From IMG/VR virus record IMGVR_UViG_3300027714_000096, positions 1-27,325 of that record: DNA of 27,325 nucleotides, one strand, 5' to 3'. Under the pieces are notes generated by a model. That model saw only the letters and a program-made list of their open reading frames with translations, was not told the origin of the DNA and did no database searches. The stretch is from a virus. The position numbers and the translations under genes are program-made. This document shows positions 6,384-27,325 of the stretch, piece by piece. Position 1 is the first letter of the stretch. Every line of letters starts with the position of its first letter.

Positions 6384-7574
6384 TTATTCTAAATCGCCAA
6401 GTTTTTTCAATTCTTCTAATTTGGCATGAGGTTTTTGTATTCCCCCAATTGCCGTGTAGACTGTTAGATCGGGTTTGTCCCCGCTATAAATTCCACGATG
6501 GACAACGCTCCCCTTTGTTAGCATGCGGGAGAATTGATCAAAAGCCCTATCAAGATTCTGTTGTGGTAATGTCTCTAAAATTTGTTTTCCGCCAACGATA
6601 ACTACACCAGCAGAGTTACCACTACTTAAATCAACACCACCAGAAAGCATGTTGTTTTTTAAATTATCTCTAACCACTTTGCTAATACTGGAGGGACCAT
6701 CCCAGTCGCTAACGCCAGCGGCACCAAAAACAATTAACCCAGTATCTAACACCTGTTTATAGTCATTGGAATCAAAAGCAGAATAGCTGCTATTTTTAGC
6801 TGCGGTATGATTAAATAGGTGAAATAATCCCGCAATACTCATGTTAGCGGTTTCCCAGAAAGTCCCCACTGGTAACCCCGGATAAAGAGTATTGATTTTT
6901 TCGTTGTCTAGTATTATTAGAGGAGATACTATTCCGCGCTCAACCAGATCCCAAACCTTAACCAAGGTGGCATAAGCATTTGCATTAACCTTTTTTCCTT
7001 CGGAATGTTTTGGTAATGCAAGCACAACGCCTACTTTATCAGTGGGAGCCTTAATGGTCCGTTGCATTTCTTGGGCGGTCTCAACCAATGGACAAACAGT
7101 TCCTGCACCCGAGCCACCGCCAGCCCCAGCACAAACAAAAATTCTATCTACTGACTCCCCAAAAGAATCATACATGAAATCGAGAACATCTTCTCTATGA
7201 TCAGTATATAGTCTTTCAGCAATATCGGGGTTTTTTCCAGCCCCTCCATTACCAATACAGAGTTTATTATCAAGATTAATTGTATTTAAATCCTGCTGAG
7301 CTGTGTTAAGAACGGCAATTTTTCTATAGCCTAATTTATGAAAAGATTCTGCAATTCTAGAGCCTCCCTGCCCCGCACCGATAAAAGCAAAGTTAAAAGC
7401 GACATTGCAATTATCCTTATTTTTATCTTCCTTTTCCGCCACCACTTTAGGCATCGGGATAGGAATTTCAGGCATAGAAATATCGACACTAGAATCTGTA
7501 TTCATATAAGAATCTAGATCATCAACGGGGGGTTGATTATCTGGCGTGGGAGAATTTAGATTTTCAGTATTCAT
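6384..7574 (-). CDS. Tubulin/FtsZ-superfamily GTPase (phage tubulin)
   Basis: After a disordered acidic/Pro-rich N-terminus (~1-55) comes a tubulin/FtsZ GTPase core. It shows a first loop FIGAGQGGSRI (64-74), the nucleotide-binding region IAVLNTAQQDL, and the signature loop AGAGGGSGAGT (149-159, equivalent to GGGTGTG). In the region matching the FtsZ T7 loop, FDSNDYKQVLDTG keeps two Asp (268 and 271) spaced as in the catalytic DxxD, so hydrolysis should be possible. It is 396 aa long. Phage tubulins (PhuZ, TubZ) form filaments that position phage DNA or segregate plasmids; which role applies here is unknown. Its neighbours are a 65-aa acidic protein upstream and the holin-like gene downstream, so it lies in the late block rather than next to a centromere-like repeat. 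Confidence 0.8.
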   Translation of the reverse strand: MNTENLNSPTPDNQPPVDDLDSYMNTDSSVDISMPEIPIPMPKVVAEKEDKNKDNCNVAFNFAFIGAGQGGSRIAESFHKLGYRKIAVLNTAQQDLNTINLDNKLCIGNGGAGKNPDIAERLYTDHREDVLDFMYDSFGESVDRIFVCAGAGGGSGAGTVCPLVETAQEMQRTIKAPTDKVGVVLALPKHSEGKKVNANAYATLVKVWDLVERGIVSPLIILDNEKINTLYPGLPVGTFWETANMSIAGLFHLFNHTAAKNSSYSAFDSNDYKQVLDTGLIVFGAAGVSDWDGPSSISKVVRDNLKNNMLSGGVDLSSGNSAGVVIVGGKQILETLPQQNLDRAFDQFSRMLTKGSVVHRGIYSGDKPDLTVYTAIGGIQKPHAKLEELKKLGDLE

Positions 7575-17903: not shown

Positions 17904-19025
17904 CTAACCATTTAGTACCTCGTCCTCACTTATACCGAGTATTCTAGCTTTAACCTCATCCATCGACGAAAGTTTTTCTACTTCACCTTTAATAACTTTT
18001 TTGCGTAGCTCAGCTAGCTTTATAAGTTTTTGTCTAGACTCCTCTTCTTTCCATAGCTGTACTAAATTAATAATACTGGCATTTTCTTTAATTTGGTTTT
18101 TAAGTCTATCTGATCTCTTTTCTTTTAAATCATTAAGCAATTTATTTTGGCGGGTTACAGATTGATGGTAATCAGTTTGAGCTTTACCAATAGCCTCAAC
18201 CAGTGACATTGAAATCCTTCTCCCATCTGTATCTGCAGCTACGTCATCAAGTAGATGTTGGAGATGTTCTACTCGCCTCTGGATGTTCGAAGCAATTACT
18301 ACCTCCGAGGCAAGAACGATATATTGATCTACCTCTTCCTGTGTTAAGTCAGATTTGTCATAAGTGTATCTTACAAAACTAGATTCAAATAAATCACGAT
18401 CTATTTGACTTTCAAAATGATTTATATGATGTAGAAATCTATAAGTATGCAAATAACCTATTAAAGCCTCGACACCCCGACGCTGAAAGGCTGTGATCTT
18501 ATCTTTGTTAATACCATTTAAAACATACTTGTTAATTCGACTGACTATTAAATTTAAAGTTCTAGGGGGCTTATACTCTTCCGAAGGTACCGGGTTAGAA
18601 TCAGCGGGCGATACATTAGATTGTTGAATGTCATTTTCTTTTTTGAACTCGCTTACCAAGCGGGTTTCCTTATGTAGGTTCGTAAGAGTATTGTCTTCAA
18701 AAATCATACGAGCTATATCTTGGTCCGTCATAGCATGTCCATTGTTGACAATGAACTCTTCCATTTCACTGGTCAGGCTTACATCACTACGACCCACATA
18801 TTCATGTGAGGCTTTCGCTTTAATATCCCTAGATACCAAAAAAGCTTTTAAACATTTACCATACTTACTTCTTCCGTCTTGTAGTTTTTCTTCTATGTCT
18901 GGAAAAGCAATTTGAACTAGCTCCTTTAAAGAGGGAGGCGTTTTTGGGCACCTATTCCATTCATTAATGATATCCTTTTGACGTTCGTCAGAAATAGTTA
19001 AATCTCCACTTTTGAAATCACTCAT
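17904..19025 (-). CDS. Helical DNA-binding-like protein between the sigma factor and terminase genes (373 aa)
   Basis: No domain name is certain. The N-terminal ~130 residues look like two consecutive small helical units of HTH size (PSLKELVQIAFPD, KCLKAFLVSRDIKA; then LTSEMEEFIVNNGHAMTDQDIARMIF). Residues ~160-373 are almost entirely helical and charged. Its ATG overlaps the sigma-factor stop by 1 base (TAATG), so the two are likely translated together. A transcription partner of the sigma factor or a small terminase subunit are both plausible, given TerL two genes downstream. Confidence 0.5.
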   Translation of the reverse strand: MSDFKSGDLTISDERQKDIINEWNRCPKTPPSLKELVQIAFPDIEEKLQDGRSKYGKCLKAFLVSRDIKAKASHEYVGRSDVSLTSEMEEFIVNNGHAMTDQDIARMIFEDNTLTNLHKETRLVSEFKKENDIQQSNVSPADSNPVPSEEYKPPRTLNLIVSRINKYVLNGINKDKITAFQRRGVEALIGYLHTYRFLHHINHFESQIDRDLFESSFVRYTYDKSDLTQEEVDQYIVLASEVVIASNIQRRVEHLQHLLDDVAADTDGRRISMSLVEAIGKAQTDYHQSVTRQNKLLNDLKEKRSDRLKNQIKENASIINLVQLWKEEESRQKLIKLAELRKKVIKGEVEKLSSMDEVKARILGISEDEVLNG

Positions 19026-19786
19026 TAATAATCCACCTCCCCTTTATTTAAAACTTTTTTTACTTTTTCGATTATAGATTTTTTTATATTTTTAATTTGT
19101 TTGTAGCCGGGAATCCTGTTCTTTTCAGAAGTTCTATAACCCATTAGCCGTGCAACCTCTTCTTCGCTTTTATATTCTATGTAGAGATGTTTGTATACTT
19201 TCCACTCTATGGGTTTTAGTATCTCTTCCATTTTTATATGTAATTTTTTGGCAAATTTTTCTATATCAGTGTTATCGGAGTTTCTTGAAAATACTTCTTG
19301 GGGGTGATCTTCTAATGAGACAGGGAGCTTCGCGTCGTGTGCTGATTTTTTTGTTTTTTCCCAATGAGCATAAAGAGGGCATGTAGAATCTTGATCGGTG
19401 TAAATGGAGCAGGAGTTACTAGACTCAGCAGCAGCGCATCGTAAACATGGGCGCGCGTAATTGCCGTAGTTGTTTCTAATGAGGTTTTTTATTTGATTGG
19501 AGATTATCCTATTTATCCATGGGCCCAAGGGTTTGTCGGAATCATATAAATCCCATTTTTTATAAATATGAATCCTAAGAATTTGTGACACATCCTCAAA
19601 ATCCATCCACGCCAGAACGGTTAAGTTCCACTTAGGTCTCCGCTTAATTATCTCTGTGTTGATTTGGTCAATTGAGTCTTCAAAAGAAGGCCCCTTTTTC
19701 TTTTTATTTTTTTTTGGTTTTTGTGATTTTTTCGGAGATTTTGTGGAATGGCCGCTCTGGCTATTTTTTGGGCGACCTCTAGGCAT
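19025..19786 (-). CDS. Phage sigma-70-family factor with four-Cys insert
   Basis: A Lys/Ser-rich tail (1-35) precedes a sigma region 2-like segment (52-108) with MDFEDVSQILRIHIYKKWD and PLGPWINRIISNQIKNLIRN. The C-terminal part (190-246) is region 4-like: EWKVYKHLYIEYKSEEEVARLM and then GYKQIKNIKKSIIEK. Between them is an unusual insert with C114-x2-C117-x8-C126-x9-C136, a probable zinc site. By analogy with T4 gp55 it would direct host RNA polymerase to late promoters. AAAGG lies 8 bases before ATG 19786. It is followed by a coupled 373-aa gene and preceded by a zinc-ribbon gene. Confidence 0.75.
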   Translation of the reverse strand: MPRGRPKNSQSGHSTKSPKKSQKPKKNKKKKGPSFEDSIDQINTEIIKRRPKWNLTVLAWMDFEDVSQILRIHIYKKWDLYDSDKPLGPWINRIISNQIKNLIRNNYGNYARPCLRCAAAESSNSCSIYTDQDSTCPLYAHWEKTKKSAHDAKLPVSLEDHPQEVFSRNSDNTDIEKFAKKLHIKMEEILKPIEWKVYKHLYIEYKSEEEVARLMGYRTSEKNRIPGYKQIKNIKKSIIEKVKKVLNKGEVDY

Positions 19787-21638: not shown

Positions 21639-22394
21639 TTATCCCAAGTGTTTTAGTTTTCCAACAAGGAATTTAACTAGCTCAGAGCGCATAATATCTT
21701 CTTCAGTAAATTTAAAAGTATATACTCCATGCTCTAGGCTGTCTTGGTCTTCATGAAAAAGATCATACATTTTACTAAAACCACTTTTCCCCCCATGTAA
21801 ATCAGTTTGCATAGGATCTGCCAGAACAAAGCACTTAGACCCTTCACCCAGACGGGTCAGGATGGTCGTAATTTCCTTTGTAGTGCAGTTTTGAGCTTCA
21901 TCCATGATAATACACTTGTTCGTCCAGTTAACGCCTCTAGCGAAGTTTACGGGGAACATTGAAATACGCTCTTCTTTTTCCAAACGCTCTGTAGTTGTGT
22001 CTGGAAGTAGCTCATCAAGTTTTTCTAAAAGAGGAATTTTATAGTAAGCCAGTTTTTCATCTGCACTTCCCGGTAAAAAACCGATTCTTTGATCAGAAGA
22101 TTCAACAGAAGACCTTAAATACACAAGATCAGAGATACATTTCATATTAAGCATCTGTAATGCACAATATACAGCGAGTAGGGTTTTACTTGTCCCTGCG
22201 GGACCATCAACAAATGTTATTTTTGTATTTCTATCTAAAGCGATACGAAAGAAATCCCTTTGTTTCTCAGTCCATTTGAACTGATTGATTTTTATTTGTC
22301 TTTTAATCGGATCGAAGGCTGTCATTTCTTCTGCGATCTCATCCGCTAACTCGATTCTCTCGCCTCTCTTGGAGGCCTTGTTTCTTTTAGCCAT
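21639..22394 (-). CDS. phoH: PhoH-like P-loop ATPase
   Basis: I place the start at ATG 22394 (MAKRNKASKRGERIEL) rather than ATG 22460, because the upstream stretch is unlike PhoH and overlaps the AGTGTA element and AT-rich repeats. The 251-aa protein has Walker A GPAGTSKT (64-71), Walker B CIIMDEAQ (161-168), LTRLGEGSKCFVLADPMQTD and LHGGKSGF, all as in PhoH ATPases. PhoH-like proteins are common in phages, especially aquatic ones. They may act as RNA helicase or ribonuclease partners or in stress response, but the phage role is not settled. Confidence 0.9.
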   Translation of the reverse strand: MAKRNKASKRGERIELADEIAEEMTAFDPIKRQIKINQFKWTEKQRDFFRIALDRNTKITFVDGPAGTSKTLLAVYCALQMLNMKCISDLVYLRSSVESSDQRIGFLPGSADEKLAYYKIPLLEKLDELLPDTTTERLEKEERISMFPVNFARGVNWTNKCIIMDEAQNCTTKEITTILTRLGEGSKCFVLADPMQTDLHGGKSGFSKMYDLFHEDQDSLEHGVYTFKFTEEDIMRSELVKFLVGKLKHLG

Positions 22395-22411
22395 GTATAT
22401 ATAATTACACT
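22394..22411 (-). promoter_or_regulatory. AGTGTAATT...ATATACA element at the PhoH start
   Basis: Minus-strand AGTGTAATTATATATACA ends on the A of the PhoH start codon, 18 bases like the copy at 5646-5663. If it is a promoter the message would be leaderless or start inside the gene, so an upstream promoter or a translation role must also be considered. Confidence 0.4.
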
Positions 22412-22722
22412 TTAAATTAAAAAAGTGCCCGCCGATTTTTTGACCTTTACCCCCAAGCATATTTAAATGTATTTAAATATATTTGAAAAAGGGGGGGGTG
22501 CCTTTATTTATATGATAAGAGATGTATATTAGAAGACTTTTGGTTTCTCGGGGAGACTCAGGATACCCCCCACGCACCGGAAAGGCAACAAAAAAAGACC
22601 GTTTTTTTTCAAAAAGGGGGTGGGGCTATATTAAAATCGCCTTTAAATATCATTTTAAATACCATTTTAAACAATTACCTTAAACGATTACCTTAAATGA
22701 TTTCACTAAAGAAATCAACGGA
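22412..22722. other. Non-coding AT-rich region with runs and repeats, candidate replication origin
   Basis: No gene is seen here. The left part has three ~10-base TATTTAAAT-type repeats (22460-22485) ending in AAAAAGGGGGGGG. The middle has a short TCTC/GAGA hairpin (about 22546-22556), an A7/T8 snap-back (about 22590-22610) and a second AAAAAGGGGGTGGGG. The right part holds five tandem TTAAA repeats. The end has a weak 7-bp TGATTTC/GAAATCA stem at 22699-22718. AT-rich direct repeats beside G-runs at the border between two gene blocks resemble a duplex-unwinding region. No perfect DnaA box is seen in it. Confidence 0.4.
22643..22704. repeat. Five tandem 12-13 bp TTAAA-type iterons
   Basis: Units start at 22643, 22655, 22667, 22680 and 22693. 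They read TTAAATATCATT, TTAAATACCATT, TTAAACAATTACC, TTAAACGATTACC and then TTAAATGATTTC. The first two and the middle two are near-identical pairs. Regular spacing of about one helical turn suggests protein binding or easy melting, as in replication origins. Confidence 0.6.
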
Positions 22723-22977
22723 TTAAATAGGGTTGTGATTTTCTAGGCCATACATACGGGCGACACTGCCATCTGGTCTGCGGTTATCGTCAAGGTCTAT
22801 CTCCTCGGGTGGTGGCGCGAGTGGGTTACCACACGCAGTAAGGAAACGCTCCGCGTCAAAGCGTGGGTTGTCCTGCTCGAACTTAGCAACGGCAAGCAGT
22901 GCGAGTTTAGAGGCTGGCGCGCCTTGATTGGCTGCGTTAATAAGAGAGGCGATGAATTCGAAATGTTGTTTAGTCAT
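22723..22977 (-). CDS. Small hypothetical early-region protein (84 aa)
   Basis: The start at ATG 22977 (MTKQHFEFIASLINAANQGA) is chosen because the frame upstream overlaps the preceding gene. The first ~55 residues are helical (LALLAVAKFEQDNPRFDAERF). The C-terminus is Pro/Asp/Arg-rich. No family is recognised. It is the last gene before the AT-rich region. Three AGTGTTA-like repeats lie in the leader (22985-23012). Confidence 0.6.
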   Translation of the reverse strand: MTKQHFEFIASLINAANQGAPASKLALLAVAKFEQDNPRFDAERFLTACGNPLAPPPEEIDLDDNRRPDGSVARMYGLENHNPI

Positions 22978-23011
22978 AATATAATAAGTGTTAAGTTTAA
23001 TAGTGTTAGTG

Positions 23012-23374
23012 TTAATCTCTGCATCGGATGTCATTGCCATCATTATCATCGTACCATCCGATAACGGCTGAGCCATCCGAATCACGCACAATCTCCTTGC
23101 CATAAGCGTACTCACGCGCTGGCTTGTGTGATGGTGCTTTAGCATCAGCGGTGAACGTGCGGTGGTCTTCTAAGAAGTCTTGCACTTCATCCTCGGATGC
23201 GTAAAACACATCTTCAAATGCTACCGTGTCACCGTAGCCATCACCAAAGGCATTCTCTAACCATACACCCTCACAGGCTAGGATGGTGAGAAGGCGGCAA
23301 GGCTCGCCTGTGTTTGCATTGATGTAAATTCTGCCACATTGCAGATCCGTTGCTTTTTTGTTTTGTTCTTTCAT
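23012..23374 (-). CDS. Early-region protein with shared VRDSDGSAV...GWYDD tail (120 aa)
   Basis: The start at ATG 23374 (MKEQNKKATDLQ) is favoured over ATG 23380, since it leaves a usable leader of about 12 bases from the promoter at 23393-23430. The N-terminal ~60 residues form a small mixed domain (CGRIYINANTGEPCRLLTIL). The last ~32 residues (YGKEIVRDSDGSAVIGWYDD, then NDIRCRD) are almost the same as the tail of the gene at 26110-26406, while the N-terminal parts differ. The pair therefore share a C-terminal module with different heads. No function is recognised. Confidence 0.65.
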   Translation of the reverse strand: MKEQNKKATDLQCGRIYINANTGEPCRLLTILACEGVWLENAFGDGYGDTVAFEDVFYASEDEVQDFLEDHRTFTADAKAPSHKPAREYAYGKEIVRDSDGSAVIGWYDDNDGNDIRCRD

Positions 23375-23392
23375 AATCATTTAACTGTGTTA

Positions 23393-23430
23393 AGTATATC
23401 ACACGAGGTGAGACATCCGCTGTCCTACCT
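23393..23430 (-). promoter_or_regulatory. Extended -10 promoter with operator-like palindrome (type II, copy 1)
   Basis: Minus-strand TGATATACT gives an extended -10 (hexamer 23393-23398) without a usable -35. The -35 zone is filled by a 25-bp imperfect palindrome (23406-23430; arms AGGTAGGACA / TGTCTCACCT, 8 of 10 paired). The same arrangement recurs at 24705 and 27180, pointing to one regulator controlling all three. Confidence 0.7.
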
Positions 23431-23619
23431 GTTAACTTTCCCAACTTTCTTTACTGTGCGGGTGAATGGCTCACTGCCATCGGAGAAGCTCCGACGCCAA
23501 GCCTTGCCGTCTACGATACGTCGAGCGTGTGCCTCGTCCATCGCTTGGATGAATATCGATCCACCATCGGTGAAGGTTACGTTGAAAATTCTCTCTGGTT
23601 TCTTAGGTGTGTTTATCAT
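23425..23619 (-). CDS. EAHARR-family early protein, copy 1 (64 aa)
   Basis: The start at ATG 23619 (MINTPKKPERIFNVTF) follows the promoter at 23666-23694 with a leader of about 40 bases; an earlier in-frame ATG lies at or before the -10. The core FNVTFTDGGSIFIQAMDEAHARRIVDGKAW is related to the protein at 26462-26632 (EAHARR plus the strand before it). It reads as a beta-beta-alpha fold of small size. Its 3' end overlaps the palindrome of the next promoter by 6 bases. Function is unknown. Confidence 0.65.
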   Translation of the reverse strand: MINTPKKPERIFNVTFTDGGSIFIQAMDEAHARRIVDGKAWRRSFSDGSEPFTRTVKKVGKVNR

Positions 23620-23665
23620 AATCTTTTTAGTTTCTTCTGTTGTGTCTCTCACTTTCAATACGAAT

Positions 23666-23694
23666 AGTATACCTGAAAAAAACGAAAAAGTCAA
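23666..23694 (-). promoter_or_regulatory. Strong sigma-70-like promoter (type I, copy 1)
   Basis: TTGACT (23689-23694), a 17-base spacer and TATACT (23666-23671), preceded by AAAGAAAGTGA and followed by the leader GTATTGAAAGTGAGAGA. Upstream flank, hexamers and leader recur at three other sites in this region with small changes. Confidence 0.88.
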
Positions 23695-23710
23695 TCACTT
23701 TCTTTAAAAA

Positions 23711-23742
23711 CTATTCACAAAATAAATGGCAATTGTGAATAA
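23711..23742. promoter_or_regulatory. DnaA-box-like inverted pair (copy 1)
   Basis: CTATTCACA (23711-23719, plus) faces TTATTCACA (23734-23742, minus). The second matches the TTATNCACA DnaA-box consensus exactly. The pair lies between the type I promoter and the GC-rich hairpin, and the same layout is kept at two other sites in weaker form. Confidence 0.5.
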
Positions 23743-23763
23743 CTTTTGCTTGACAGGGGGCCT

Positions 23764-23822
23764 CGGCGGGGGGACCCTCGCAGATAGTACGTGTACGTAC
23801 TATCTCAGGCGGCCCGCCCCCG
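23764..23822. repeat. GC-rich hairpin with 24-bp palindrome (copy 1)
   Basis: The centre (23782-23805) is AGATAGTACGT, GT, ACGTACTATCT: 11-bp arms and a 2-base spacer. Outer arms of G-runs and C-runs can extend the stem (CGGCGGGGGG / CCCGCCCCCG with mismatches). The centre is identical in all three copies. TATATAAT follows on the plus side. No U-run follows in either direction, so it is not a standard terminator. Confidence 0.85.
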
Positions 23823-23856
23823 ATTATATAATGCAAGCCTTTTAATAGTAAAAGGT

Positions 23857-23925
23857 TTACCAGTCCATCCCGATGCATACGCCAAACATACACACCATAA
23901 TGATAAGTAAAGGATACAATTCCAT
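23857..23925 (-). CDS. Membrane micropeptide with a perfect ribosome site (22 aa)
   Basis: AAGGAGGT lies 8 bases before ATG 23925, the best ribosome site in the early region, and the upstream gene's stop is only 1 base away. The peptide begins MELYPLLIIMVCMFGV and ends MDW: one membrane helix with acidic ends. It resembles the 22-aa peptide at 25222-25290 (MEL start, LLII, MFG). It is the last gene before hairpin copy 1. The function is unknown; small phage membrane peptides can modulate host membrane enzymes or block lysis or superinfection. Confidence 0.55.
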   Translation of the reverse strand: MELYPLLIIMVCMFGVCIGMDW

Positions 23926-23926
23926 A

Positions 23927-24232
23927 CTAGGCTACCTCCTTATATACTGGGCTTGTGCGGTGACCTTCGCCGTAGGAAGGGCACATCGCTGTGACTTTTT
24001 TGTTGCCTGTTTGGGCGAACAGCTTGCCAACCGTATAGTCAACCCAACCGCGAGAGGTTTGCTGCTCACCGATGTACTCAATCGCATCTTGCTGGGCTGC
24101 GTGGAAAGTCAGAGTACCGACCTTGGCGCGAGTGCTGAAGTGAGCGCAAACAGAATCAAATCCGCTGAACTTGTTTGTGTGGCGAAATCCCTTTGCGTGG
24201 ATCTCGGTATAATAATGTTGTATGTCTCTCAT
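23927..24232 (-). CDS. Early-region hypothetical protein (101 aa)
   Basis: The start at ATG 24232 (MRDIQHYYTEIHAKGFRH) is preceded by the AAGATT leader common here; ATG 24262 would overlap the HAD gene. The protein is mixed alpha/beta with HTNKFSGFDSVCAHFSTRAK and QQDAIEYIGEQQTSRGWVDY. Its 3' end contains the AGGAGGT ribosome site of the next micropeptide. No family is recognised. Confidence 0.6.
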   Translation of the reverse strand: MRDIQHYYTEIHAKGFRHTNKFSGFDSVCAHFSTRAKVGTLTFHAAQQDAIEYIGEQQTSRGWVDYTVGKLFAQTGNKKVTAMCPSYGEGHRTSPVYKEVA

Positions 24233-24236
24233 AATC

Positions 24237-24680
24237 TTAATTAAATTCCTTCTGGTCTTCACTTACTAACTCACCCAGTTCACCCAGTCCATCTATGTTG
24301 CGTGGGTCATTGTCTACTAGCTTACGCATCACCCACTTAACGATACGCTGCTTGCGTTCGACTATTCTCTTGCTACTTACCTTTGCCCAATCGGCTGGCT
24401 CGTTAACGTCTACGCCTACAGTGATCACGCGCCCTACATTGAAATTCAATTTCTCAAGTGCCATCCGAATGAACCAAGCACTGTCATTGCCTCGTGCAGT
24501 GAGGATATCAACGTGCTTGCCTGAATCCCTGACCAGCTTGCCTAGTGGGGTGAGATCGCTTTCCTCTAGGTTAAGGATAGCGGCAGGATTAGTGAAATCA
24601 AATAAGCGTTTGGAGTCGCGCATCTCTTTGATGAGTGTGCCGTCTAGGTCAAATAATGGTTGTAAGGTTTCTTCTGTCAT
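24237..24680 (-). CDS. HAD-superfamily phosphatase-like protein
   Basis: The start at ATG 24680 (MTEETLQPLFDLDGTLI) is preferred, because ATG 24698 coincides with the expected transcription start of the promoter at 24705. Motif I is FDLDGTLI (nucleophile Asp11), motif II is HVDILTARGND (Thr in LTARG), a Lys-rich helix (SKRIVERKQRIVKW) follows, and motif IV is VDNDPRN. At 147 aa it matches small capless HAD or 5'(3')-deoxyribonucleotidase-type enzymes, which remove phosphate from nucleotides or from nucleic-acid ends. A role in nucleotide metabolism during takeover is likely; the substrate is not determined. Confidence 0.72.
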   Translation of the reverse strand: MTEETLQPLFDLDGTLIKEMRDSKRLFDFTNPAAILNLEESDLTPLGKLVRDSGKHVDILTARGNDSAWFIRMALEKLNFNVGRVITVGVDVNEPADWAKVSSKRIVERKQRIVKWVMRKLVDNDPRNIDGLGELGELVSEDQKEFN

Positions 24681-24704
24681 ATCGTTTTTAATTATCATAC
24701 GTAT

Positions 24705-24742
24705 AGTATATCACACGAGGTGGGACATTTGCCGTCCTACCC
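24705..24742 (-). promoter_or_regulatory. Extended -10 promoter with operator-like palindrome (type II, copy 2)
   Basis: TGATATACT (hexamer 24705-24710) is preceded by the 25-bp palindrome at 24718-24742 (GGGTAGGACG / TGTCCCACCT arms on the minus strand). It should drive the HAD gene. Confidence 0.68.
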
Positions 24743-24743
24743 T

Positions 24744-24908
24744 CTAACTTTCTTCATCCTCTACAGGGTGGAGGAAAGGGCCAAGGTGGGCGTTATCCCG
24801 TTGCCATTGGCGGTTGCCTTCCCGCACTTGCCGCACGGATTCGTTCCAGCGTTGCACACGGGCATCTGCCTTGCGTTGCTCTTCTTGTACTTCTTCTCTA
24901 GTTCTCAT
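24744..24908 (-). CDS. Small charged early protein (54 aa)
   Basis: ATG 24908 follows the type I promoter with a short leader containing GTATTGAAAGTGAGAGA. The peptide (MRTREEVQEEQRKADARVQR...) is a charged helix rich in Arg, Gln and Glu, with Trp residues and a Pro-containing end. Its stop lies 2 bases before the palindrome of the next promoter. The partial gene at 27212 ends in the same way at the same kind of palindrome. Function is unknown; nucleic-acid or host-protein binding is possible. Confidence 0.6.
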   Translation of the reverse strand: MRTREEVQEEQRKADARVQRWNESVRQVREGNRQWQRDNAHLGPFLHPVEDEES

Positions 24909-24932
24909 AAGTCTCTCACTTTCAATACGGTA

Positions 24933-24961
24933 AGTATATCACAAACATCCGCGAAAGTAAA
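24933..24961 (-). promoter_or_regulatory. Sigma-70-like promoter (type I, copy 2)
   Basis: TTTACT (24956-24961), a 17-base spacer and TATACT (24933-24938), which is also an extended -10 (TGATATACT). It shares the AAAGAAAGT upstream flank and the GTATTGAAAGTGAGAGA leader with the other type I promoters, but its -35 is weaker. Confidence 0.82.
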
Positions 24962-24977
24962 GAACTTTCTTTAAAAA

Positions 24978-24998
24978 CTATTAACAGGCTGTGAATAA
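24978..24998. promoter_or_regulatory. DnaA-box-like inverted pair (copy 2)
   Basis: CTATTAACA (24978-24986) faces TTATTCACA (24990-24998 on the minus strand), the latter an exact TTATNCACA match. The spacing between the two half-sites is much shorter than in copy 1. Confidence 0.45.
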
Positions 24999-25029
24999 CT
25001 TTCTGACCTTTACGCTTGACAAGCAGGCC

Positions 25030-25089
25030 GGCGGGGGGACCCTCGCAGATAGTACGTGTACGTACTATCTCGGCGGGTGGGCCCCCGCC
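25030..25089. repeat. GC-rich hairpin with 24-bp palindrome (copy 2)
   Basis: The central palindrome is 25047-25070, identical to copy 1. The outer stem is GGCGGGGG / CCCCCGCC plus an inner ACCC / GGGT pairing, the best-paired copy. It is preceded by TTGACAAGCAGGCC, shared with copy 3, and followed by TATAAAA. Confidence 0.88.
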
Positions 25090-25121
25090 TATAAAAGTAC
25101 AACTATTAAATACTAATTTCT

Positions 25122-25220
25122 TTATAATGTTTCTATGTAGATTCCTGCTACCAGTATAATCGCGAAGGATACGATACCGATAATAAGAACAAAATAAATA
25201 TCTCTGTAGTCGTCTTTCAT
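25122..25220 (-). CDS. Membrane micropeptide (32 aa)
   Basis: ATG 25220 lies one base after the stop of the 22-aa peptide gene (TGATATG). The sequence begins MKDDYRDIYFVLIIGIVSFA, has one membrane helix and ends YIETL. It is the last gene before hairpin copy 2. Stop-start coupling with its neighbours supports translation. Function is unknown. Confidence 0.5.
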   Translation of the reverse strand: MKDDYRDIYFVLIIGIVSFAIILVAGIYIETL

Positions 25221-25221
25221 A

Positions 25222-25290
25222 TCACTTTATACTTAAGTAAAAGGATCCAAACATAAATACAAAAACACTAATAATTAATAATAATTCCAT
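25222..25290 (-). CDS. Membrane micropeptide (22 aa)
   Basis: ATG 25290 directly follows the TAA of the upstream 55-aa gene (TAAATG). The peptide begins MELLLIISVFVFMFGSF and ends LSIK: a single membrane helix. It resembles the 22-aa peptide at 23857-23925 in its MEL start and MFG motif. It is followed after 1 base by another membrane micropeptide. Confidence 0.5.
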   Translation of the reverse strand: MELLLIISVFVFMFGSFYLSIK

Positions 25291-25458
25291 TTAGGCAAAT
25301 TCCCCCGTGCCGTGAACATACCAAACGGGATAAAGCTTCTCGTTGGCATATTGCGGAAAATGCATCTTAAAGTTTTGAAGCGCACCCGCCTTGTCAAATC
25401 CGCAAGTGTTGAATGTTTGCCCGTTGCGTAAGTTGATAGTAAATTTAAATCCTTTCAT
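25291..25458 (-). CDS. Small early protein (55 aa)
   Basis: The peptide begins MKGFKFTINLRNGQTFNTCG and continues KAGALQNFKMHFPQYANEKL, ending TGEFA. It looks like a small beta-alpha-beta domain. ATG 25458 has the AAGATT leader. The stop touches the next gene's ATG, so the genes to 25122 form a coupled string. No family is recognised. Confidence 0.55.
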   Translation of the reverse strand: MKGFKFTINLRNGQTFNTCGFDKAGALQNFKMHFPQYANEKLYPVWYVHGTGEFA

Positions 25459-25462
25459 AATC

Positions 25463-25651
25463 TTAAAAAGTTAAAATGTCAATTGCCTCAATAAGTTGAA
25501 ATCCAAAGTCTAAAATCACAGCAACAAATAAAATTGTCACAACGAACTTAATCATTGGCATAAACACTTCATCACGAAATGCTTGATTGAATGCTTCGTT
25601 TATGTCTTGCAATGTCCCGACTATGGGTAGTTTGTTTTTGTTTTTCATCAT
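25463..25651 (-). CDS. Small membrane protein (62 aa)
   Basis: The start at 25651 overlaps the upstream stop by 4 bases (ATGA); a second ATG follows at 25648. The N-terminal half is soluble and amphipathic (LQDINEAFNQAFRDEVFMP). A membrane helix follows (~35-53, FVVTILFVAVILDFGF). The end is acidic and hydrophobic. It is larger than the micropeptides nearby but has the same single-helix plan. Function is unknown. Confidence 0.6.
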   Translation of the reverse strand: MMKNKNKLPIVGTLQDINEAFNQAFRDEVFMPMIKFVVTILFVAVILDFGFQLIEAIDILTF

Positions 25652-25830
25652 AATTCAATTGGTCTTGCGCCCGTGAGGATGCCTTTAATGGCGGGTTGCA
25701 TATGCCCCACAACGTCCAGCCTTGCGAGAGCCTTGGCTTGTGGGGTTGGGTTGTTAGCTGCCCACTCATTCCACAATGGGGATGATGGGAGGGGTTTCGG
25801 TGCGCCTGTGGCGGTCAGTAGTTTTTTCAT
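25648..25830 (-). CDS. Small hypothetical early protein (60 aa)
   Basis: It begins MKKLLTATGAPKPLPSSPLW and is Pro/Ala-rich with a helical middle (AKALARLDVVGHMQPAIKGI), ending ARPIEL. It has no membrane segment. The AAGATT leader is present at ATG 25830, and it is coupled by ATGA to the membrane protein gene. The family is not recognised. Confidence 0.5.
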   Translation of the reverse strand: MKKLLTATGAPKPLPSSPLWNEWAANNPTPQAKALARLDVVGHMQPAIKGILTGARPIEL

Positions 25831-25835
25831 AATCT

Positions 25836-26102
25836 TTACGCCTCCGCCGTATCAAATGTGAATGTCTCGCCTTCGTCGCTTGAGTAAATCTCAAACAGTC
25901 GTTTAGTGATGGGGTTCCACACTTGCACAGTTTCAAGACCCGCGCCTTCACCATCAAATGTGTGCCAATTCATAATATGATATGTCCCCATTTTAATAGG
26001 ATGTTTCACCCGCGCATCGGTGCTGCGCCTGTGCAGAGTCACCTTGCCTTGGTTCAAGTCGTTGGGGTTGGTATCTTCGTAGGTTGCTTCGTACTGTTTC
26101 AT
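25836..26102 (-). CDS. Small hypothetical early protein (88 aa)
   Basis: The start at ATG 26102 (MKQYEATYEDTNPNDLNQGK) avoids overlap with the upstream gene; the frame open further upstream is a shadow of that gene. The protein is beta-rich with VKHPIKMGTYHIMNW and VWNPITKRLFEIYSSDEG. No family is recognised. It lies 7 bases past the GWYDD-tail gene and 5 bases before the next gene. Confidence 0.55.
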   Translation of the reverse strand: MKQYEATYEDTNPNDLNQGKVTLHRRSTDARVKHPIKMGTYHIMNWHTFDGEGAGLETVQVWNPITKRLFEIYSSDEGETFTFDTAEA

Positions 26103-26109
26103 AATCGTT

Positions 26110-26406
26110 TTAATCTCTGCAACGAATATCGTTGCCATTTTCATCATCGTACCATCCGACAACAGCCGAACCATCAGAGTCCCGCACAACTTCTTTGCCG
26201 TGCCAAAACTCGCGAGGTGACCAAGGTTTTTCTACCTTCGCCGCAATCTCTTCAATGGAGGTTACAAATGCACCGTTTGGGAGGTTGTCCCGCTTGTCGG
26301 CGATTAAGGTTGCGAGTTCCAAATTTTCGGTTTGGATCTCATACTCTCCGAATTGACCATAGCGGTCTTCGGTTTCTACTCTGAATTTTTTCATTTTGTC
26401 TTTCAT
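26110..26406 (-). CDS. Early-region protein with shared VRDSDGSAV...GWYDD tail, copy 2 (98 aa)
   Basis: ATG 26406 (MKDKMKKFRVETEDRYGQFG) follows the promoter at 26437-26465 with a leader of about 25 bases; the longer upstream frame is spurious. The head (~1-65) differs from that of the gene at 23012-23374. The tail HGKEVVRDSDGSAVVGWYDD, then NDIRCRD, is nearly identical to that gene. The head contains an ELATLIADKRDNLPNGAFVT segment similar in plan to the EAHARR proteins. Function is unknown. Confidence 0.65.
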   Translation of the reverse strand: MKDKMKKFRVETEDRYGQFGEYEIQTENLELATLIADKRDNLPNGAFVTSIEEIAAKVEKPWSPREFWHGKEVVRDSDGSAVVGWYDDENGNDIRCRD

Positions 26407-26436
26407 AATCTTGTTTCTCTCACTCTCAATACGTAA

Positions 26437-26465
26437 AGTATACCTGAAATTCTTTAAAAAGTCAA
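26437..26465 (-). promoter_or_regulatory. Strong sigma-70-like promoter (type I, copy 3)
   Basis: TTGACT (26460-26465), 17 bases, TATACT (26437-26442), with the GTATTGAGAGTGAGAGA leader. It overlaps the 3' end of the EAHARR copy 2 gene, so it gives an internal start for the second gene of the unit. Confidence 0.87.
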
Positions 26466-26632
26466 GCACTTTCTTTAACTTTTTCTGTGGGCAATACCCA
26501 CAGCACCTTACCAAGGGCCAATGCCCGACCCATACCCACCGCAACGCGGCGAGCGTGTGCCTCATTGTGGGCGTTGATAAAAGTGGTTTCGCCGTAGGCC
26601 CAACTGACTTCAAATGTTTGTTCTTTTTTCAT
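26462..26632 (-). CDS. EAHARR-family early protein, copy 2 (56 aa)
   Basis: ATG 26632 (MKKEQTFEVSWAYGETTFIN) follows the type I promoter at 26663-26691. The core FEVSWAYGETTFINAHNEAHARRVAVGMGR is related to the protein at 23425-23619 (FNVTF...EAHARRIVDG). It reads as a small beta-alpha domain ending in a hydrophobic stretch and KVKESA. In both units this family is the first gene after a type I promoter and is followed by a VRDSDGSAV-tail gene. Confidence 0.65.
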   Translation of the reverse strand: MKKEQTFEVSWAYGETTFINAHNEAHARRVAVGMGRALALGKVLWVLPTEKVKESA

Positions 26633-26662
26633 AATCTTTAATCTCTCACTTTCGATACGTAA

Positions 26663-26691
26663 AGTATACCTGAAAATTCTGGAAAAGTCAA
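26663..26691 (-). promoter_or_regulatory. Strong sigma-70-like promoter (type I, copy 4)
   Basis: TTGACT (26686-26691), 17 bases, TATACT (26663-26668), upstream flank AAAGAAAGTGA, leader GTATCGAAAGTGAGAGA. Very close in sequence to copy 1. Confidence 0.88.
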
Positions 26692-26707
26692 TCACTTTCT
26701 TTAAAAA

Positions 26708-26738
26708 GTATTAACAAAAAAGTTGCAAATGTTGATAA
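26708..26738. promoter_or_regulatory. DnaA-box-like inverted pair (copy 3, degenerate)
   Basis: GTATTAACA (26708-26716) faces TTATCAACA (26730-26738 on the minus strand), the latter one mismatch from TTATCCACA. It keeps the position between promoter and hairpin. Confidence 0.35.
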
Positions 26739-26759
26739 AAAAGACTTGACAAGCAGGCC

Positions 26760-26820
26760 GGCGGGGGGGGCCCGTGCAGATAGTACGTGTACGTACTATC
26801 TCGAGAGGTGGGCCCCCGCC
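26760..26820. repeat. GC-rich hairpin with 24-bp palindrome (copy 3)
   Basis: The central palindrome (26778-26801) is identical to copies 1 and 2. Outer arms are GGCGGGGG / CCCCCGCC, with the G-run lengthened to eight. TTGACAAGCAGGCC precedes it and TATAAAA follows. Confidence 0.88.
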
Positions 26821-26854
26821 TATAAAAAGGCAAGTATTAAATACTAGTTTTTTT

Positions 26855-26926
26855 CTAGTCGCTCCAAATATAATCGTCGGCGTTCCAACCTAGTATAATA
26901 ATCGCGATAATAAATATAATAATCAT
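26855..26926 (-). CDS. Membrane micropeptide (23 aa)
   Basis: ATG 26926 lies one base after the stop of the 75-aa gene, whose end supplies an AAAGG ribosome site. The peptide begins MIIIFIIAIIILGWNADDY and ends WSD: one very hydrophobic helix with an acidic C-terminus. It is the last gene before hairpin copy 3, as in the two other units. Function is unknown. Confidence 0.5.
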   Translation of the reverse strand: MIIIFIIAIIILGWNADDYIWSD

Positions 26927-26927
26927 T

Positions 26928-27155
26928 TTACCTTTCCATACTTTCTTCGTAGGTAAGCACTCGCGTGCCTTGGCTACCGATAATTTTCGAACGGTCAACG
27001 TAAACGTCAATCTCGTTTTCTGTTAGCTCTAACTCTTCACCGTCTTGATCGATCACGATCACGGTGTCAAATTCTGTGATTTCGTCAACTGTCATCAGTT
27101 GCATTCCTACGCGAACTTCGTCGCCTACTTTTACTTGTTGGTTTTCTATTGTCAT
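26928..27155 (-). CDS. Small acidic beta-rich protein (75 aa)
   Basis: It begins MTIENQQVKVGDEVRVGMQL and continues with short strands (VDEITEFDTVIVIDQDGEEL). It reads as an SH3-like or KOW-like small barrel and is acidic. ATG 27155 follows the type II promoter at 27180-27217 with a leader of about 20 bases. It is coupled to the membrane micropeptide. A binding role is possible; no family is certain. Confidence 0.6.
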   Translation of the reverse strand: MTIENQQVKVGDEVRVGMQLMTVDEITEFDTVIVIDQDGEELELTENEIDVYVDRSKIIGSQGTRVLTYEESMER

Positions 27156-27179
27156 AATCTTTAATCTTTAACTGCGTCT

Positions 27180-27217
27180 ATTATAGCACGGGAGGTGAGA
27201 CATCCGTAGTCCTACCT
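27180..27217 (-). promoter_or_regulatory. Extended -10 promoter with operator-like palindrome (type II, copy 3)
   Basis: TGCTATAAT (hexamer 27180-27185) is a near-perfect extended -10. The 25-bp palindrome at 27193-27217 fills the -35 zone. It should drive the 75-aa gene and its micropeptide. Confidence 0.72.
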
Positions 27218-27325
27218 GCATCTTTCTTCATCTTTTTCTCTGTTCAATTGTTGCTCCTCCTCATCGGTGAAAAGCTTGCCTCTCTCAATGGACTGGATCT
27301 CCATGCCTTTCATGCCTTTGCCAAA
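27212..27325 (-). CDS. C-terminal fragment of a small early protein, cut by window edge
   Basis: Thirty-seven codons are open from the right edge to TAG at 27212-27214, ending ...REKDEERCR. The visible part is charged (SIERGKLFTDEEEQQLNRE), similar in character to the 54-aa protein at 24744-24908, and both end beside or inside a type II palindrome. The start lies outside the window. Confidence 0.5.
   Translation of the reverse strand, partial: FGKGMKGMEIQSIERGKLFTDEEEQQLNREKDEERCR

Follow-up and report, generated by a model that had tools for sequence, protein, structure and literature searches.

Architecture of the three cassettes

The window, that is, the whole stretch of DNA analysed here (a 27.3-kb virus record, IMG/VR IMGVR_UViG_3300027714_000096, positions 1–27,325), carries nearly all of its genes on the minus strand, including those for a terminase, PhoH, a tubulin-like protein and a sigma-70 region 2 protein. 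At its right end, amid a run of very small genes, three intergenic sites on the minus strand have in common a hairpin, a DnaA-box-like pair, a sigma-70-like promoter and a leader (Table 1). Read along the coding strand, a hydrophobic micropeptide gene is followed by a GC-armed hairpin with a palindromic core (hereafter PAL), a far box, a near box, the promoter, the leader and a small gene, with each hairpin lying 3′ of the stop codon of the micropeptide gene and all functional parts of the three cassettes read on the minus strand. This single order of parts, first proposed in a sequence-only reading of the locus, was confirmed by two direct-repeat families of 94 nt each, one comprising the promoter and leader and the other the hairpin and its flank. 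The leader consensus within the cassettes is CGTAT(T/C)GAAAGTGAGAGA, and a fourth site consists of the leader and promoter only, with neither hairpin nor box. We consider it somewhat better than an even chance that the three sites are modular early-promoter cassettes that separate very short transcription units and carry a helically phased activator-type site, the term ‘early’ being inferred from gene position.

The 24-nt core AGATAGTACGTGTACGTACTATCT is present exactly in all three copies (0 expected), and 100 dinucleotide shuffles yielded no match even when three mismatches were allowed. It had been described as a palindrome, which holds for its 11-bp arms but not for its GT/AC centre, so that the palindrome is imperfect. 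The DnaA-box-like inverted pair can likewise be recognised at all three sites, but the far box TTATTCACA is exact in copies 1 and 2 only and reads TTATCAACA in copy 3. The near boxes (TGTGAATAG, TGTTAATAG and TGTTAATAC) are degenerate, yet in every copy their distance from the −35 box is exactly 25 nt. An EAHARRI-like motif occurs in the paralogous tiny proteins encoded right behind cassettes 1 and 3, and also in the relatives L166 and L108.

The box is helically phased with the promoter

In the first cassette set, the box TGTGAATAA was located 16–17, 25–27 or 35–36 nt from the −35 box. IMG/VR viral contigs were scanned for the box together with a promoter, any spacing from 14 to 44 nt being allowed. 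The scan returned 98 distinct sites, with 27 at 16–17 nt, 43 at 26–27 nt and 11 at 36–37 nt (81/98). Removal of near-duplicates left 74 sites, among which redundancy may partly persist, with a vector strength R of 0.81 at 10.1 bp; the maximum R in 2000 uniform simulations that included the period search was 0.42. For strong promoters in the fetched loci, 69 exact boxes gave a period of 10.0–10.25 and an R of 0.90, and among promoters not chosen for a box, 13 of the 14 boxes with at most one mismatch were positioned at 17, 25–27 or 36 nt. The letter-shuffled box used as a control gave 18 sites (9 after deduplication) and no significant phasing. Thirteen of the 20 contigs with phased boxes that were tested carry the terminase and the sigma-like protein of the window's lineage. 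The phasing of the box in related phages suggests a shared, undescribed way of turning early genes on.

A replication origin or partition site had also been proposed for these sites, and DnaA-type 9-mers beside 15-nt iterated palindromes, together with the double boxes 2–3 bp apart in contig L027, would fit such a function. Against it, the boxes are phased to promoters, the 3 to 9 copies in a genome are dispersed, every one of them having a promoter and a gene to itself, and relatives lacking PAL keep the box and promoter. Because each box keeps a helical-turn distance from the promoter of its own cassette and the copies are dispersed, we did not retain this proposal and regard it as very improbable.

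Cassettes recur in related phages and in one with a different packaging gene

The contigs G001, G002 and G005 to G010 share the structural gene order of the window and are therefore assigned with it to one lineage. No near relative of this lineage was found among 50,697 phage records, and the cassette DNA was also unmatched there. The window terminase matched the Pfam T4likevirus-type N-terminal model, with its best phage matches, from Bacillus and Lactococcus phages, only ~24% identical. An alignment search with the sigma-like protein (encoded at 19025–19786 on the minus strand; its sigma-70 region 2 match is above the Pfam cut-off, in a phage with no cultured near relative) reached >500 viral contigs, and few of the best 80 hold the TACGT palindrome.

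The 24-nt core was sought in other phages and was present in a longer, near-identical record (L004), in a 91% relative (L005) and in a 67.6-kb phage (L006, also L052 and G003); looser patterns found further cassette contigs. The 67.6-kb phage G003 has no match to the terminase or the sigma-like protein of the window, shares PhoH-region and small-gene homologues with it, and holds eight core-palindrome sites within ~10 kb, between small genes. Exact conservation of the core amid varying flanks had been taken as a sign of selection. Within one genome this argument is weak, as copies 2 and 3 already agree at 86% of positions in a 94-nt stretch; the proper case for selection on the core comes from its presence in a phage whose packaging gene differs. 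The cassette recurs amid shuffled small genes in the 91% relative, in more distant members of the lineage and in the phage with the different packaging gene, which bears out the proposal of a modular regulatory element. Only in this window was the palindrome observed to lie between a membrane micropeptide gene and a promoter, and the arrangement does not appear to be a general rule.

Homologues of the small genes beside the cassettes occur in other phages, where their order differs. Comparison of cassette 2 of the window with that of G002 revealed an exact promoter behind an exchanged upstream hairpin arm and exchanged boxes, with the G002 box at 26 nt. Cassettes come in a long and a short form, with ~97 or 51 nt between PAL and the −35 box, and both forms occur in phages with different packaging genes. 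In relatives that lack PAL, L166 and L108 among them, the remaining parts of the cassette are retained and are preceded by different GC-rich hairpins. The cassettes might be read as recombination elements, the repeats providing homology for small-gene shuffling and any regulation being a passenger; the reordered gene sets around them, the window/G002 module swap that ends just upstream of the promoter and the sharing of cassettes between phages with different packaging genes all accord with this. In contrast, the tight box-to-promoter register over many contigs demands a functional reason, and PAL cores are kept at 12–18 bp, an identity too short for efficient homologous exchange. We judge this account possible but clearly the less likely one, and it is compatible with modular promoter cassettes.

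The content of G003 bears on the suggestion that the palindromes are operators of a temperate-phage repressor. In cluster A mycobacteriophages, stoperators are asymmetric sites of 13 bp that are paired with a cognate repressor (PMC6550527); they resemble the present sites in being short, conserved and scattered between genes, here in the company of small genes. They differ in that the sites described here are near-palindromic and tied to promoters, and no repressor or lysogeny module was found. The gene set of the PAL-bearing G003 includes functions in nucleotide metabolism, rIIB-like proteins and three sigma factors, and neither a repressor nor an integrase was seen among its listed families. 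As this second phage has a lytic-type gene set and no visible repressor, a temperate repressor array is unsupported and highly unlikely.

Palindrome and hairpin

The palindrome was redefined as TACG-YRYR-CGTA. In these elements, the YRYR centre was found in 57/57 copies of TACGNNNNCGTA, and because the search pattern fixes the arms, the centre is the sole independent test. Near-variants of the arms are rare in these elements, and across the 57 copies the flanking pairs GT and AC are both common, with the arms unvarying. PAL copies are single, paired 44 nt apart (L028) or arranged in 15-nt arrays (L024, L027 and L029).

The hairpins of the window, folded as RNA, are far more stable than those of shuffled sequences (z of −3.2, −4.1 and −3.6), and stable hairpins are also present at most L052 and L092 sites. 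The RNA topology nevertheless differs by phage: PAL forms the tip of the hairpin in the window, lies beside a GC hairpin in L052, forms a nested pair in L092 and is a tandem array in L027. A terminator scan found no U-run at the three sites, so that the stem of a rho-independent terminator is present and its U-run absent, in agreement with the earlier view that this is not a normal terminator. Searching positions 22000–27325 against Rfam gave nothing up to E=1, and no relevant literature naming the palindrome was found.

These data allow a boundary acting at the RNA level, in which the hairpin ends or protects message 3′ ends, as a terminator without a U-run or as an RNase barrier, and is followed by an ordinary promoter. 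The stability of the hairpins, their constant position in the window between a gene end and the next promoter, and a bias of the coding-strand PAL centre (AC 29, GT 6, AT 9) speak for it. Its difficulties are the wholly different topologies in the window, L052, L092 and L027, the absence of a U-run and the retention of sequence beyond what pairing requires, with arms unvarying and both flanking pairs common. Moreover, in L027 the PAL array comes after a GC hairpin that already has a T-run. Because the RNA shapes differ between phages and the L027 array follows such a hairpin, recognition of PAL as DNA is favoured, and we give the RNA-level boundary roughly one chance in four.

Two other palindromes were found upstream of phased boxes more often than in shuffles, namely TGAGA-N5-TCTCA (12 sites) and GGACCGGTCC (8 sites), alongside TACGT-N2-ACGTA (4 sites), with a shuffle maximum of 3. 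PAL is replaceable by other palindromes. Most genome-contig matches to TAGTACGTNNACGTACTA are lone sites without boxes, which look like chance and were rejected as true cassettes. TTGACA beside the GC arm was also rejected as a second promoter, with no −10 box at the right distance in the window.

The PAL arrays in L024 (13870–14020) and L028 (3760–3920) are flanked by facing TTGGCACGAAACTTGCTG-type inverted sequences. Such facing TTGGCACGNNNNTTGCT inverted pairs may fit either the sigma-54 −24/−12 consensus or terminal inverted repeats, and the sigma-54 reading is at most tentative because the pairs face each other. In L027 (2600–2780), L023 (11800–11920) and L021 (290–390), a repeated TTCGACCCT/AGGGTCGAA motif is interleaved with PAL arrays.

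A model for the cassettes

The architecture of the cassettes, their recurrence, the mosaic small genes, the exchange of upstream modules with the promoter kept and the whole-turn placement of the box (~16, 26 and 36 nt) were computed directly. Along the coding strand, each cassette is made up of four parts, namely a palindrome or hairpin module directly behind the preceding gene, one or two DnaA-type boxes of 9 bp (TGTGAATAA / TTATTCACA), the sigma-70-like promoter, and a short leader joined to the next small gene. The box would be the site of an activator contacting RNA polymerase from a single helix face in a class I-like manner, with host DnaA or a protein of similar specificity as the leading candidate. 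The palindrome TACGYRYRCGTA could be recognised as DNA by a dimeric protein, thereby marking or insulating the border of the unit, and its role is the weakest step of the model. The GC arms may add a hairpin at the RNA level that reduces read-through. DnaA is a candidate because TTATTCACA matches the DnaA box consensus TTATCCACA at 8 of 9 positions.

Several results weigh against the promoter-cassette model or its parts. The canonical DnaA box TGTGGATAA has many sites and is weakly phased (R=0.32), and box pairs 2–3 bp apart, which occur in L027, are absent at the three sites of the window. As E. coli DnaA prefers two boxes at that spacing (PMC11317965), the binder may not be DnaA. DnaA-regulated bacterial promoters resemble the cassettes in having a DnaA-type 9-mer upstream, but differ from them in the preference for closely spaced pairs, where the window has one phased box and a distant inverted one, and in that the box family here mostly has T instead of C at the fifth position. 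The AC centre in 29 of the 35 informative PAL copies is not explained by a symmetric operator. Helical phasing of the PAL to −35 distance was sought and not seen, the distances clustering near 97 and 51 nt, which indicates that PAL is not a direct polymerase contact. The proposal of a protein-binding palindrome is favoured by the YRYR centres, the invariant arms and the tandem arrays, but no gene for a PAL-binding protein common to all PAL-bearing contigs was found among the BLAST families. In addition, the cassette promoters are predictions from consensus matches, and most of the contigs examined are fragments. A more specific version, in which host DnaA or a look-alike is the helically phased activator of interchangeable early cassettes and an undescribed regulator, transferred from phage to phage together with the cassette, uses TACGYRYRCGTA as its operator, is a tentative one that we think rather doubtful.

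Comparison with known systems

The closest known kind is the PeSL (promoter early stem-loop) cassette of T4-type phages, which was reportedly described by Arbiol et al. 2010 (Genome Biol Evol 2:140) as lying between small early genes, being repeated in one genome and being linked to gene shuffling. The two share a promoter and stem-loop between small (early) genes in several copies per genome, and an association with gene shuffling that is seen here in the reordered genes and the G002 module swap. They differ in that no near T4-type match was found for the terminase of the window's lineage in the phage collection, and in the DnaA-type box in helical register and the interchangeable palindromes, neither of which is known from PeSL.

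Class I activator sites of the CRP type lie upstream of sigma-70 promoters and are helically phased. The box resembles them in its location upstream of the −35 box at whole-turn steps of ~10 bp, and differs in that the motif is a DnaA-type 9-mer and that activation is inferred.

The phasing rule points to a common activator. For phages that resist cultivation, a box placed 16, 26 or 36 nt away from −35 would serve as a sequence rule with which to locate where transcription starts and where small accessory genes lie. If the activator is DnaA, early phage expression would be coupled to the replication state of the host. The cassettes also offer an example, outside the close relatives of T4, in which regulatory modules move together with small genes as these are shuffled.

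Table 1 Positions of the cassette parts and adjoining genes in the window
Feature	Position	Strand	Basis
Leader CGTATTGAAAGTGAGAGA, copy 1	23645..23662	-	repeat comparison; same leader in other contigs, e.g. L166, L181, L202, L230
Promoter TTGACT-17-TATACT, copy 1	23666..23694	-	consensus match
Near box TGTGAATAG, copy 1, 25 nt from -35 box	23711..23719	-	
Far inverted box TTATTCACA, copy 1, 48 nt from -35 box	23734..23742	-	
GC-armed hairpin, copy 1	23757..23822	-	RNA folding z -3.2
Palindromic core (PAL), copy 1	23782..23805		exact match
22-aa hydrophobic micropeptide gene ahead of hairpin 1	23857..23925	-	translation
Small gene behind cassette 1, EAHARRI-type paralogue	23425..23619	-	
Leader, copy 2	24912..24929	-	repeat comparison
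Promoter TTTACT-17-TATACT, copy 2	24933..24961	-	consensus match
Near box TGTTAATAG, copy 2, 25 nt from -35 box	24978..24986	-	
Far inverted box TTATTCACA, copy 2	24990..24998	-	
GC-armed hairpin, copy 2	25022..25089	-	RNA folding z -4.1
Palindromic core (PAL), copy 2	25047..25070		exact match
32-aa hydrophobic micropeptide gene ahead of hairpin 2	25122..25220	-	translation
Small gene behind cassette 2	24744..24908	-	
Leader, copy 3, one change	26642..26659	-	repeat comparison
Promoter TTGACT-17-TATACT, copy 3	26663..26691	-	consensus match
Near box TGTTAATAC, copy 3, 25 nt from -35 box	26708..26716	-	
Far inverted box TTATCAACA, copy 3	26730..26738	-	
GC-armed hairpin, copy 3	26753..26820	-	RNA folding z -3.6
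Palindromic core (PAL), copy 3	26778..26801		exact match
23-aa hydrophobic micropeptide gene ahead of hairpin 3	26855..26926	-	translation
Small gene behind cassette 3, EAHARRV-type paralogue of cassette-1 gene	26462..26632	-	
Fourth leader and promoter TTGACT-17-TATACT, no hairpin or box, ahead of gene 26110-26406	26416..26465	-	

Host and other features

An intergenic region among chromosomal genes of a Verrucomicrobiia metagenome-assembled genome (G011; L048, 7560–7830) contains two boxes, TTGACA and three PAL-like sites (TACGTTTGCGTA, TACGTGAACGTA and TACGTTCACGTA). The boxes lie 36 and ~25 nt from TTGACA, and a PAL overlies the −10 position. G011 was the only match when 141 genomes from the class were searched for PAL pairs and 388 from the phylum for the box–promoter pattern, and a widespread host regulon was rejected on this basis. 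As no other genome of the 388 matched, a Verrucomicrobiota host is hinted at only.

A conserved stretch just upstream of phoH in the window (22460–22640, minus strand) is common to G002, G010, G003 and G008. It contains a GGTGCGTGGGGGGTATCCTGAGTCTCCCCG hairpin and CACCCCC...CTTTTTGAAAAAA blocks, has no Rfam match and could be an RNA element or leader. The window also encodes a tubulin/FtsZ-family GTPase (6384–7574, minus strand; PF00091, E 9e-11) that is kept in the lineage.

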